The notes under the pieces were generated by a model, which searched no databases, was not told the origin of the DNA, and saw nothing but the letters and a program-made list of their open reading frames with translations. DNA of 46,159 nt, taken from positions 1 through 46,159 of the IMG/VR virus record IMGVR_UViG_3300017917_002531; one strand, given 5' to 3'. The stretch's first letter is position 1. Every line of letters begins with the position of its first letter. Shown in pieces: positions 27,536 to 40,167 of this stretch. The translations under genes and the position numbers were made by a program. The DNA comes from a virus.

Positions 27536-27666
27536 TTACAAAAATAATAGCGGAAATATTACTGAACTGGGTAGCCATGGGAATTATTTTATCTTTGGTT
27601 ATGGCGGTATTTCTTTATTTTGCTGTATTCTGTGAAAAAATAGTTGATAGTATTTTTAAAAGATAA
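27532..27666 (+). CDS. 44-residue membrane protein
   Basis: A 44-residue gene. ATG at 27532 overlaps the previous stop (ATGA), stop at 27664-27666. Residues 13-34 are a single hydrophobic helix and the C-terminus is basic (KR). It completes the two-gene membrane module before the DNA polymerase. Function unknown. Confidence 0.5.
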   Translation: MITKIIAEILLNWVAMGIILSLVMAVFLYFAVFCEKIVDSIFKR

Positions 27667-27685
27667 GTACTTATGAGAAAGGTTG

Positions 27686-27703
27686 ATCCAGCCATAATTG
27701 GAT
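27686..27703 (+). promoter_or_regulatory. Upstream hairpin with loop GCCATAAT (polymerase leader)
   Basis: Stem ATCCA/TGGAT (five bp) closing the eight-base loop GCCATAAT (27691-27698). The second hairpin at 27712 has the identical loop and an unrelated stem, so the loop, not the stem sequence, appears to be the conserved element. Confidence 0.6.
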
Positions 27704-27711
27704 ACGTAGGT

Positions 27712-27731
27712 TTGCAAGCCATAATTTGCAA
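27712..27731 (+). promoter_or_regulatory. Hairpin with loop GCCATAAT touching the polymerase ribosome binding site
   Basis: Stem TTGCAA/TTGCAA (six bp, extendable by a U-G pair) closing GCCATAAT (27718-27725). The 3' side of the stem abuts GGAG, the ribosome binding site of the polymerase gene. T4 gp43 represses its own translation by binding a hairpin with an eight-base loop at this position, so an equivalent operator is likely. Confidence 0.65.
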
Positions 27732-27740
27732 GGAGAAAAA

Positions 27741-30416
27741 ATGAGTTATATTGACGCGATGTGGGATCGCGACAAAGACGTTGTTCACGTTGTTGAACGT
27801 GACGAAAAAGGCGTTAGACGTTTTGTTGACTATCCCGTAAAATACACTTTCTATTACCCAGACAACAAGGGTAAATTTCATAGCATATTTGGAGAATCAC
27901 TATCCAAAGTCACTGCTAGAAGTTTTAAAGAATTCACAAAAGAACAAAAAATACACAGCAATCATACATTGTATGAAAGCGACATCAATCCAGTGTTCCG
28001 TGTTTTAGAGGAACACTATCTAGGACAAGAACCTCCAAAACTACATGTTGCATTTTTTGACATTGAGGTAGATTTTGATCCTGAGAGAGGCTATGCTAGT
28101 CCTGACGATGCGTTCATGCCTATTACTTCTATCGCTGTTCATTTACAGTGGTTAGATACATTGGTCTGTCTTGCTGTTCCACCAAAAACATTAACCATGG
28201 AGCAGGCAAAGGAAGAGATAAAAGATTTTCCAAATACAATTTTATTTGAAACAGAAGCTGAATTGCTTGACACTTTTCTAACATTAATTGAAGATGCGGA
28301 TGTACTAACAGGCTGGAACAGCGAAGGTTATGATATACCTTACACAGTTAATCGTGTTATAAAGGTATTGAGCAAAGAGGATACTAAACGTTTTTGCTTA
28401 TTTGATCAATATCCGCGTAAAAGAGAATATGAAAAATTTGGTAGAACTGCTACTACATATGATTTAATTGGTAGAGTACATTTGGATAGTTTGGAAGTCT
28501 ATCGAAAATACAAGTATGAAGAAATGCACAGCTATAGACTTGATGTCATTGGCGAACTTGAAGTTGGTGAAAAGAAAACTCAATATGAAGGAACATTAGA
28601 CCAACTGTATAATAAAGACTTTAGAACCTTTATTGAATATAATAGGCAAGATACTGCACTATTAGATAAAATGGACAGGAAATTGAAATTCCTAGATCTT
28701 GCAAATGTGTTAGCACACGGCAACACAGTATTGTTACAGACAACAATGGGTGCTGTAGCTATGACAGAGCAGGCGATTATTAACGAAGCCCATCAACATG
28801 GTTTAATCGTTCCAAGTAGGACACGCAAATCTGAACAAGGCGATACTGCGGCAGCAGGTGCTTATGTTGCATTTCCCAAAAAAGGACTTCATGATTGGAT
28901 TGGCGCAATTGACATTAACTCTCTGTATCCGTCAGCTATTCGTGCATTAAACATGGGACCAGAAACCATTGTTGGTCAGCTACGACAGACTAAAACACAA
29001 GAATTTATTGAATCACAAATGACTCTACACAAAAAGTCTTTTGCTGGTTCTTGGGAAGACAAATTTGGTACTGTAGAATACGAAGCGGTCATCAATCAAG
29101 ACAAAGCAGAAGAAATTACTATTGATTGGGAAAACGGCGAAGTGTCTGTTCATAGTGGTGCTGAAATCTATGAAATGATTTTTAACAGTCATAAGCCCTG
29201 GATATTAAGTGCTAACGGTACAATCTTTACATACGAAAAAGAAGGTATCATTCCTGGACTACTTAAACGTTGGTACAGTGAACGTAAAGATATGCAGAAA
29301 AAATCCAAAGAGGCAGAAAAGGCCGGTAATACAGTTGAAGCTGAATACTGGGACAAGAGACAAATGGTGCGTAAAATTAATTTGAACTCATTGTATGGCG
29401 CTTTGCTAAATCCTGGATGCCGCTTCTTTGATAAGCGTATTGGGCAAAGTACTACCTTAGTTGGTCGTCAAGTTGCTAGACATATGGCTAGTAAAATAAA
29501 TGAAATCATATGCGGCACATATGATTACAAGGGCAAAAGCATTATTTACGGTGACACTGACTCTTGTTATTTTAGTGCTTGGACTACCTTGAAATCAGAA
29601 GTAGAAAAGGGAAATTTAACCTGGGATAAGGACACTGTTGTTTCTTTATACGACCAAATTGCAGAAGAAGTTAATGAAAGTTTTCCACAATTTATGCTTG
29701 ATTACTTTCATGTACCTAAGTCACGTGGGGAAGTTATTAAAGGTGGACGAGAACTAGTAGCTGTTAAAGGCTTATTCATTACTAAAAAGAGATATGCAGT
29801 TCTTATCTATGATAAAGAAGGTAAACGTATAGACGTAGATGGAAAGCCAGGTAAGATCAAAGCTATGGGATTAGATCTTAAACGTTCAGATACTCCTGAC
29901 TATATGCAAAACTTTTTAGAAGAAATTCTTTTAGACGTACTACAAGGTAAGGAAGAACAATTTGTATTAGATAAAATTATTGAGTTTCGAAGAGAATGGA
30001 AAACCCGTGCAGGTTGGGAGAAAGGTAGTCCTCGTCGTGCTAATAATATTACAGAATACGCTGAACAAGAACGTAAACAAGGCAAAGCAAATATGCCAGG
30101 TCACGTTAGAGCTGCCATTAATTACAACAGGTTACGTGATCTAAACGGCGACAAGTATTCCATGCAAATTGTTGATGGAATGAAAGTATATGTTTGTAAA
30201 CTGAAAAATAACGCACTAGGTTATACTAGCGTTGCTTATCCAGTAGACGAACTGAAAATTCCTAAATGGTTCCAAGAGCTTCCTTTTGATGATGTTGCTA
30301 TGGAACAGACAATTATCGATAATAAGATTGATAACCTTATTGGAATACTTGAGTGGGATATTAGTAGTACTACAGACAGCGGAACTACTTTTAATAAATT
30401 GTTTGATTTTGAGTAA
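27741..30416 (+). CDS. 43: Family B DNA polymerase (T4 gp43-like)
   Basis: 891 residues from the ATG at 27741, with AAGGAG upstream; an in-frame TTG at 27726 lies in the hairpin and is rejected. The proofreading domain has DIE (107-109), NSEGYDIP (Exo II) and YNRQD (Exo III). The polymerase domain has motif A DINSLYPS (from 391), motif B KINLNSLYG and motif C YGDTDS (603-608), all with intact catalytic acids. Length agrees with T4 gp43 (898). It replicates the phage genome with the clamp (30471) and clamp loader (3179). Two hairpins at its leader suggest autogenous control. Confidence 0.96.
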   Translation: MSYIDAMWDRDKDVVHVVERDEKGVRRFVDYPVKYTFYYPDNKGKFHSIFGESLSKVTARSFKEFTKEQKIHSNHTLYESDINPVFRVLEEHYLGQEPPKLHVAFFDIEVDFDPERGYASPDDAFMPITSIAVHLQWLDTLVCLAVPPKTLTMEQAKEEIKDFPNTILFETEAELLDTFLTLIEDADVLTGWNSEGYDIPYTVNRVIKVLSKEDTKRFCLFDQYPRKREYEKFGRTATTYDLIGRVHLDSLEVYRKYKYEEMHSYRLDVIGELEVGEKKTQYEGTLDQLYNKDFRTFIEYNRQDTALLDKMDRKLKFLDLANVLAHGNTVLLQTTMGAVAMTEQAIINEAHQHGLIVPSRTRKSEQGDTAAAGAYVAFPKKGLHDWIGAIDINSLYPSAIRALNMGPETIVGQLRQTKTQEFIESQMTLHKKSFAGSWEDKFGTVEYEAVINQDKAEEITIDWENGEVSVHSGAEIYEMIFNSHKPWILSANGTIFTYEKEGIIPGLLKRWYSERKDMQKKSKEAEKAGNTVEAEYWDKRQMVRKINLNSLYGALLNPGCRFFDKRIGQSTTLVGRQVARHMASKINEIICGTYDYKGKSIIYGDTDSCYFSAWTTLKSEVEKGNLTWDKDTVVSLYDQIAEEVNESFPQFMLDYFHVPKSRGEVIKGGRELVAVKGLFITKKRYAVLIYDKEGKRIDVDGKPGKIKAMGLDLKRSDTPDYMQNFLEEILLDVLQGKEEQFVLDKIIEFRREWKTRAGWEKGSPRRANNITEYAEQERKQGKANMPGHVRAAINYNRLRDLNGDKYSMQIVDGMKVYVCKLKNNALGYTSVAYPVDELKIPKWFQELPFDDVAMEQTIIDNKIDNLIGILEWDISSTTDSGTTFNKLFDFE

Positions 30417-35779: not shown

Positions 35780-36553
35780 TTGGTTTATAATAGAATGTAT
35801 ATTAGTCACGACGAAGAAACAGCGTTAGATGCAATGGCAGGAAATGGCGGATATCAAGAGGAAAAATATCTAGGTAACTATCTTCGAGCAAAAATGAAAC
35901 GTGAGGGTAAACGTTTTTGGGCAGGGGATAACATCAGCGAGTATATTGACAATGATCATGTTAGAGAACAATTGATTGACGAAGCTACAGAAGCTTTTGA
36001 AATAGTTCTAGATCGTTTGCTGATTGATCGTGAAAACGATCCTAATAGTAAAGGCACAGCAAGACGCCTTGCTAAAATGTACTTTAACGAAATAATGGCA
36101 GGAAGATATGACCCGGCACCAGACGCAACAGCATTTCCAAATGATTCGGAGGAAAGATATGAAGGCATGTTGGTGGTTCGTAGTGAGTTGCGTAGTATGT
36201 GTAGCCATCATCATCAACCCGTGGTTGGCGTTGCTTATATTGGCATTATTGCCGCTAGTAAACTTATCGGCTTATCTAAATACACACGAATCGCACAGTG
36301 GTGTGCAAGACGTGGTACTCTCCAGGAGGAGCTTTGTAATGATATTGCTAGGGAGATCCAAAAAGCCACAGGCGCCAAAGATCTAGGAGTATATATTCAA
36401 GCCACACATGGTTGCTGTGAAAACCGTGGTATTATGGCACACTCTAGCCTTACACAGACAACAGTACTACATGGTTCATTTAAAACTGATCCAGGTGCGA
36501 AAAAGGAATTTTTTGACAACATCAAATTGCAACAAGAGTTTGCTCCACGATGA
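35780..36553 (+). CDS. folE: GTP cyclohydrolase I (FolE)
   Basis: 257 residues starting at a TTG (35780). GGAG lies eight bases upstream, an ideal spacing, whereas the next ATG (35795) is 23 bases away, so the TTG is favoured. The zinc- and substrate-site motifs are present: SMCSHHHQPVVGVAYIGI (Cys and His ligands) and GVYIQATHGCCENRGI (second Cys ligand). The enzyme makes dihydroneopterin triphosphate from GTP, the first step of 7-deazaguanine (and folate) synthesis. With QueE, the QueD-like protein and DpdA it completes a plausible pathway. Confidence 0.93.
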   Translation: MVYNRMYISHDEETALDAMAGNGGYQEEKYLGNYLRAKMKREGKRFWAGDNISEYIDNDHVREQLIDEATEAFEIVLDRLLIDRENDPNSKGTARRLAKMYFNEIMAGRYDPAPDATAFPNDSEERYEGMLVVRSELRSMCSHHHQPVVGVAYIGIIAASKLIGLSKYTRIAQWCARRGTLQEELCNDIAREIQKATGAKDLGVYIQATHGCCENRGIMAHSSLTQTTVLHGSFKTDPGAKKEFFDNIKLQQEFAPR

Positions 36554-39318: not shown

Positions 39319-40167
39319 ATGAGTAAAATTAAAATTGCAGAGCTGTTTTACAGCATTCAAGGTGAAGGACGCTATATGGGTGTTCCTTCTGTTTTCTTAC
39401 GTACATTTGGTTGTAACTTTAAGTGTGCTGGTTTTGGTATGCCCAAAGGCGAACTAAGCACAGAAGTAGAAGCCATTGCTGAAAAAGTATTGGAATTTAC
39501 AAAATACGAAGAACTACCACTTGTCAGCACTGGATGTGATAGCTATGCATCTTGGGATCCAAGGTTTAAAGACCTTAGTCCAATGCTAACTACGGATGCT
39601 ATTGTAGAAAGAATTATGGAAATTCTTCCTTATAATAGTTGGGCAGAAGAACACTTAGTTATCACAGGTGGTGAACCTTTACTAGGATGGCAACGTGCCT
39701 ATGAAGATTTGTTGATACATCCTAAGATGTCTAGTTTGAAAGAAATAACATTTGAAACTAATGGTACTCAACGTCTAACAGGCGACTTACATAATTTTTT
39801 ACAACATTGGATCAATCAGGATCCTGAAAGAGAAGTAACATTTTCTGTTAGTGCTAAGTTGAGCTGTAGTGGTGAGGCTAGGCATGAAGCTATTATTCCG
39901 CATGTAGTGTGCGAATATGAAACTATTGGTTACACGTATTTAAAATTTGTTGTGGCAACAGAAGAAGATGCGGAGGAAGCATTAGAAACTGTTGACATTT
40001 ATAGAGAAAATGGATTCCGCGGACCTGTTTATCTTATGCCTGTAGGCGGGGTTGAAAGTGTTTATACTCTAAACAATCGTCGTGTTGCTGAACTAGCAAT
40101 GAAACACGGATTTAGATACAGTGATAGACTACAAGTTCCACTTTTTAAAAATGAATGGGGTACGTAA
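39319..40167 (+). CDS. queE: 7-carboxy-7-deazaguanine synthase QueE-like radical SAM protein
   Basis: 282 residues. YSIQGEGRYMGVPSVFLRTFGCNFKC matches the QueE N-terminus (cluster Cys32 and Cys36). The third cluster Cys, which follows two residues later in the usual CxxxCxxC, is replaced in position by Phe; the expected GCDSYASW piece appears only at residue 72-79 (Cys73), after a 36-residue insertion. GGEPLL and FETNGT motifs of radical SAM proteins are present. QueE makes the 7-deazaguanine ring from 6-carboxy-tetrahydropterin. The ATG is leaderless. Confidence 0.85.
   Translation: MSKIKIAELFYSIQGEGRYMGVPSVFLRTFGCNFKCAGFGMPKGELSTEVEAIAEKVLEFTKYEELPLVSTGCDSYASWDPRFKDLSPMLTTDAIVERIMEILPYNSWAEEHLVITGGEPLLGWQRAYEDLLIHPKMSSLKEITFETNGTQRLTGDLHNFLQHWINQDPEREVTFSVSAKLSCSGEARHEAIIPHVVCEYETIGYTYLKFVVATEEDAEEALETVDIYRENGFRGPVYLMPVGGVESVYTLNNRRVAELAMKHGFRYSDRLQVPLFKNEWGT

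Follow-up and report, generated by a model that had tools for sequence, protein, structure and literature searches.

The leader of a family-B DNA polymerase gene in a 46-kb virus record was found to carry two consecutive pseudoknot units, the second of which runs into the ribosome binding site, and the same tandem was found in the polymerase leaders of related viruses. Comparison of these leaders makes a tandem pseudoknot structure of the RNA close to certain, and it is highly probable that expression of the polymerase is under cis control of this element. We favour, at somewhat better than an even chance, a tandem-pseudoknot translational operator with the polymerase as its most likely repressor, which probably shuts polymerase production off once there is sufficient polymerase.

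Organization of the polymerase leader

The window is the whole stretch of DNA analysed, 46,159 nucleotides. The leader of the polymerase mRNA consists of almost nothing but the two pseudoknot units, with the Shine-Dalgarno sequence directly after. The parts, in window coordinates, are as follows.

27664–27669, + strand: TAAGTA box, possible T4-late-type promoter (from the box position relative to the first GGY across leaders)
27681–27683, + strand: GGU of unit 1, 5' strand of helix S1, partner 27691–27693 (compensatory GC/AU change, prediction test)
After 27683: TG spacer between the unit 1 GGT and the unit 1 hairpin (sequence)
27686–27703, + strand: unit 1 hairpin (S2), ATCCA/TGGAT, loop GCCAUAAU (sequence, covariation)
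27691–27693 and 27696–27697: in the unit 1 loop, GCC in S1 and the invariant AA
27703–27709 interval: short linker between the unit 1 hairpin and the unit 2 GGT (sequence)
27709–27711, + strand: GGU of unit 2, 5' strand of S1, partner 27718–27720 (prediction test, covariation)
27712–27731, + strand: unit 2 hairpin (S2), UUGCAA/UUGCAA, loop GCCAUAAU (sequence, covariation)
27718–27720 and 27723–27724: in the unit 2 loop, GCC in S1 and the invariant AA
27730–27735, + strand: Shine-Dalgarno AAGGAG (sequence)
27741–30416, + strand: family-B DNA polymerase, 891 aa, the presumed controlled gene (Pfam PF00136 and PF03104; phrog_262, E 1e-196)

The two hairpins had been claimed at 27686–27703 and 27712–27731 in an earlier sequence-only reading, and both coordinates and letters were exact (ATCCA at 27686–27690, GCCATAAT at 27691–27698 and TGGAT at 27699–27703; TTGCAA at 27712–27717, GCCATAAT at 27718–27725 and TTGCAA at 27726–27731). 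The second hairpin, which that reading had placed against the ribosome binding site, shares its final AA with the Shine-Dalgarno sequence, and the polymerase ATG follows at 27741. The outer one or two U-A pairs of the unit 2 stem probably open once S1 has formed.

The window contains the 10-mer AGCCATAATT at exactly two places, both in the polymerase leader. A strict unit search (RGY, spacer, stem of at least 4 pairs, RCYNNAAN loop, RGY complementary to the start of the loop) returned these two units only, where simulated windows contained 0.28 on average. Thermodynamic folding found the leader no more stable than shuffled sequences (z -0.07) and hairpin 1 was absent from the predicted minimum-energy fold, therefore folding was not used as evidence and the support for the structure is comparative.

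Conservation in related viruses

Hundreds of relatives of the polymerase were found in IMG/VR, the best 80 at 69–96% identity, and no record of the phage collection had a polymerase at least 60% identical to that of the window. Among 79 relatives with a visible start whose leaders were compared, nearly all contained two hairpins before the Shine-Dalgarno sequence, with loops of the pattern GCCNNAAN and very diverse stems (for example GATCA/TGATC, GCGA/TCGC, GTCG/CGAC and TCCA/TGGA). In unit 1 almost every loop read GCCANAAN, most often GCCAUAAN; loop positions 4 and 5 of unit 2 were free. The exact identity of the two loops, as first claimed, is thus found in the window and a few near relatives, and it is the pattern GCCNNAAN that is shared more widely.

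Allowing a one-base bulge or a nine-base loop, the tandem was present in 196 of 196 polymerase leaders of relatives, in none of the reverse complements and in 1 of 9,800 simulated leaders; a strict parser missed about one leader in eight, mostly those with such a bulge or loop. Covariation of the unit 1 stem across 60 distinct ungapped sequences was 0.68, compared with 0.25 for shuffled and at most 0.12 for slid alignments; every cell was paired and 97 cells had changed on both sides, the complete pairing being in part a matter of selection since the parser demanded paired stems. For unit 2 the value was 0.52 against 0.18 (29 sequences, of which 8 were drawn from the AGT+GCT scan described below and so were pre-selected), and an alignment of the whole tandem (42 sequences) held 124 doubly changed cells. 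The check proposed with the original observation, that related phages should keep the loop while the stems change, was therefore strongly positive, with compensatory changes in the stems and GCCNNAAN retained in the loop. The only invariant unpaired sequence was AA, usually preceded by U or C in unit 1; the expression used for the loop table required AA, and looser leader listings show the same AA pattern.

One further locus (L115, reverse strand, upstream of position 130), which lies outside the 196 leaders and has its polymerase cut by the contig end, contained unit 2 and apparently no unit 1, with a terminator-like hairpin and T run directly before unit 2 in the place of unit 1. It seems to be a natural single-unit variant. 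The element was absent from the leaders of many polymerases at 60–63% identity, which indicates that it can be lost, and from those of the nearest cultured-phage polymerases at 41–52% identity (Phosso, Atu_ph07, SCTP-2, CBB, XbC2, RaK2, MIJ3 and Vibrio 2.275.O).

Pairing of the loop with an upstream GGY

A GGY was found 1–5 bases upstream of the core of every stem, complementary to the first three loop bases GCC. As the loop GCC pairs with GGY across the stem, each unit is an H-type pseudoknot in which S1 is formed by the three GGY/GCC pairs, S2 is the stem of 4–6 pairs and NNAAN crosses S1. The sequence-only reading had taken the conserved loop as a sign that a protein reads it; a protein may do so, but conservation of the loop no longer calls for this as its sole reason, since the GCC is held by its pairing. 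The two invariant adenines are probably docked in the groove of the short helix S1.

In unit 1 a loop GCT always occurred with an upstream AGT (6 of 6 distinct sequences), the other 117 all having GGY. The corresponding prediction for unit 2 was tested on IMG/VR using 24-base patterns which carried no gene information. The GGT+GCC pattern gave at least 120 matches, and among those listed only polymerase loci were reached, 118 lying before a polymerase by tblastn and the remaining two at contig ends where the start of the polymerase was visible (MYVDA, MSYVDA), for a total of 120 of 120. With the matched AGT+GCT pattern 17 of 20 matches were at a polymerase, in a different clade mostly at 60–65% identity, and with GGT+ACC 15 of 18. 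The mismatched patterns GGT+GCT and AGT+GCC reached the polymerase in 0 of 5 and 0 of 1 matches in IMG/VR. When the middle pair was changed to A-U with pairing kept (GAT+GTC), 0 of 11 IMG/VR matches were at a polymerase, which suggests that the middle G-C of S1 is required in its own right.

Mapped onto a tree of 129 polymerases, the change from G-C to A-U has about seven origins, four in unit 1 and three in unit 2 (two on well-supported branches), with both sides changing together every time. The two units swap independently of each other: in L027 AGT/GCT in unit 1 goes with GGT/GCC in unit 2, and L213 combines GGT/ACC in unit 1 with AGT/GCT in unit 2. Such matched swaps, made separately in each unit, indicate that at this S1 pair it is the pairing rather than the identity of the letters that is kept. 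In the AGT+GCT clade (L211–L230, L244, L264) the unit 1 loop is 6–7 bases long and complementary to the upstream AGT, as in AGTC-GCTC-ACTCAAC-GAGC.

Genomic location and operon context

Strict units in 591 kb around 80 polymerases numbered 139, all of them either in the polymerase leader or before an inserted gene; in L053, L062 and L076 the units are about 650 bases upstream. A covariance model built from the tandem, which scores 50 bits in the window, picked out a single strong locus in each of 12 large records (84–372 kb) at E no greater than 3.3e-9, the next best match anywhere having E 0.03. No further copies were found upstream of other genes in the 80 polymerase regions or the 12 large records. 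In a bacterial and archaeal genome collection of 257 Gb the search matched 21 places, none beside a polymerase, which is about the level of chance. The earlier description of a tandem element before the DNA polymerase gene extends to every one of the 196 leaders, and the element occurs once per genome, in the polymerase operon only.

The distance from the end of unit 2 to the start codon was 10–17 nt in 181 of 196 leaders, and in a deeper clade the 3' strand of the stem runs into CGGAG, which is itself the Shine-Dalgarno sequence. Genes lying between the element and the polymerase code for 204–206 aa in L053, L062, L076 and L168, 180 aa in L222, and 341 aa in L312 and L314. The inserted genes are unrelated ones and the element remains ahead of them, so in these lineages an operator must act via the shared mRNA; this is the main awkward fact for an operator reading.

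Of 131 distinct leaders, 68 had a TAA(A/G)TA box at -17 from the first GGY and 96 had one at -21 to -15. Judged by T4-type late promoters, this box would place the start of the RNA immediately ahead of unit 1. Boxes of the form TAAATA or TAAGTA also stand shortly before several other genes of the window (12, 1449, 15458, 18462, 25400 and 45488), and resemble a T4-late-type promoter shared among genes of this phage.

Relation to known RNA elements

No Rfam family matched the window leader, and none reached the gathering score in 16 related loci; the best riboswitch match was preQ1-II at 13.2 bits against a cut-off of 47. No earlier description of the element was found in the open-licence literature. 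The pseudoknots of STAXI (RF01728) come in groups of two or three close to genes for DNA-binding proteins (PMC2864571), and it too is a tandem pseudoknot near DNA-handling genes, but it differs in being known from Enterobacteriales, in often having UUCG loops and in its 153-position model, which had no match at E up to 10 in six element-carrying genomes and none in the window leader.

Identity with freshwater-2 (RF02980), which reportedly comes from a 2017 survey, was rejected on a score of 19.5 bits against a gathering cut-off of 49.9, and this weak match aligns mainly at ACUUAUG and the ribosome binding site. The same phage group has freshwater-2 as a leader RNA, with AAGGAGAAA..AUG at its end, and true copies of it in genomes of the relatives precede another, probably structural, gene. 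Members scoring up to 62.4 bits were found in L338–L345 (in L338 at 532–605), the gene directly after the RNA coding for a probable structural protein which mostly starts MGRPIKKKYF. This orphan motif thereby gains a home and a neighbour gene.

Comparison with the T4 gene 43 and gene 32 operators

T4 gp43 that is not engaged in replication represses its own mRNA by binding a hairpin and a sequence overlapping the ribosome binding site (PMC3014915). The likeness to T4 drawn in the sequence-only reading rested on an eight-base-loop hairpin just upstream of the polymerase ribosome binding site, and the window has one. Both elements serve the same gene from the same place, and with the RB3 operator (AGCCU-AAUAACUC-GGGCU) the new units share a stem of about 5 pairs, an 8-base loop (AAUAACUC in RB3) and an AA within it. 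The core of the gene 43 operator loop is UAAC in T4 and RB69, CAAC in SELEX and UAAA in RB49, with AC/AA especially relevant (PMC3014915); in unit 1 most cores read UAA with A, T or G as the next base, 13 of 108 have C instead of U, and AA alone is invariant. The operator of T4 and RB69 is a single hairpin with no evidence of a pseudoknot, and some T4-related polymerases are without autoregulation (PMC3014915). Here there are two units, each pseudoknotted with an upstream GGY and having the loop GCCNNAAN, and a single pseudoknot-free hairpin of the gene 43 type is ruled out by the two units and the covariation of S1. Being tandem and pseudoknotted, the new element may work in the same way as the gene 43 operator but should not be filed as one.

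The gene 32 operator of T4 and T2 offers a second comparison, in that a pseudoknot in the gp32 leader is thought to nucleate the binding of the repressor beside the ribosome binding site (PMC3014915). There too the leader of a replication gene carries an H-type pseudoknot; however, only one is present, 67 nt upstream, with an unstructured A+U-rich stretch containing UUAA repeats downstream of it (PMC3014915), and the gene controlled is that of the single-strand-binding protein. An element of this type was therefore rejected for the window, where the gene is the polymerase and there are two pseudoknots, the second directly abutting the Shine-Dalgarno sequence.

Proposed function and alternatives

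Comparative analysis of the leaders established the RNA structure, the tandem layout, the pseudoknot pairing, the restriction to the polymerase operon and the position at the ribosome binding site. A translational operator of this gene accounts best for an element that has a single copy per genome, invariably lies on the polymerase mRNA and as a rule sits against its ribosome binding site, and a target found only in cis argues for the product of the gene itself as repressor, following the T4 gp43 scheme. From this we infer repression, what each of the two sites does, and that the polymerase is the binder. A repressor would clamp both pseudoknots, the 30S subunit would be blocked from loading and polymerase synthesis would stop. 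Unit 1 is perhaps the entry site for the repressor, with unit 2 held against the ribosome binding site, and the two sites could allow cooperative binding. The repressor would most likely be the polymerase itself while off DNA, as for T4 gp43, and we give its acting as its own repressor a little better than even odds. A more specific version, which we hold just short of an even chance, is that this is a new RNA family, a cooperative tandem operator with which the polymerase counts its own free molecules, unit 1 serving as the high-affinity entry site and unit 2 as the shut-off at the ribosome binding site.

The same operator might instead be bound by another RNA-binding protein of phage or host, such as the phage single-strand-binding protein or a host factor. 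There is precedent in T4 gp32, which acts on its own mRNA via a pseudoknot operator (PMC3014915). We nevertheless consider another protein unlikely. The target occurs once per genome and only at the polymerase. Trans-acting regulators usually have several targets, and RegA, which is also a repressor in T4, could not be detected in 11 genomes or records.

It is less probable still that the pseudoknots form a structural 5' cap without a ligand, which guards the mRNA against decay or fixes the rate of translation. Placement of the RNA start just ahead of unit 1 by the TAARTA box would suit such a cap, as would the retention of the element at the front of the operon when genes are inserted. A general stabiliser would, however, be expected on other mRNAs, where the element was not found, and the constancy of the AA, of the middle G-C pair and of the distance to the start codon points to something beyond bulk structure.

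Genes for FolE (GTP cyclohydrolase I) and QueE are present in the window at 35780–36553 and 39319–40167, and QueE was found in 9 of 10 related records (in G003, at C1:135820–136721, the match is split into two pieces 125 bases apart, profile 10–47 and 47–246, owing to a frameshift, insertion or assembly error). Together they suggest a 7-deazaguanine pathway, perhaps for DNA modification. The smallest riboswitches are similar to these units in size and H-type fold, and tandem aptamers exist. Along with the FolE and QueE genes, this would accord with a riboswitch in which two pseudoknot aptamers bind a nucleotide or a 7-deazaguanine compound as the signal to close the ribosome binding site. We rate this slightly below the structural cap, however, because the invariant unpaired bases are just two (AA), offering little for a ligand pocket, no Rfam riboswitch matched, and the controlled gene is a polymerase rather than one for synthesis or transport.

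A DNA element (a cruciform or a protein-binding site near a promoter or origin) is very improbable in spite of the promoter-like box close by, as the third S1 pair is mostly U-G, which pairs solely in the sense-strand RNA and so indicates that the element acts as mRNA, the distance to the start codon is tight and the inverted orientation was never seen in the 196 leaders.

Significance

New as an RNA element and strongly supported, the tandem is of a functional kind already known, and it adds to the RNA families one that Rfam lacks. It comes with a built-in internal control, as the two copies have unrelated stems, and with natural compensatory mutants too. To our knowledge T4 and its relatives are the only case in which autogenous control by a replicative DNA polymerase has been worked out, and there it uses a single hairpin. 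The translational operator proposed here would solve the same task with a different construction, in a large clade for which the phage collection searched contained no close cultured relative, and if the proposal is true it would be the first pseudoknotted autogenous polymerase operator, and the first in tandem, of which we are aware.
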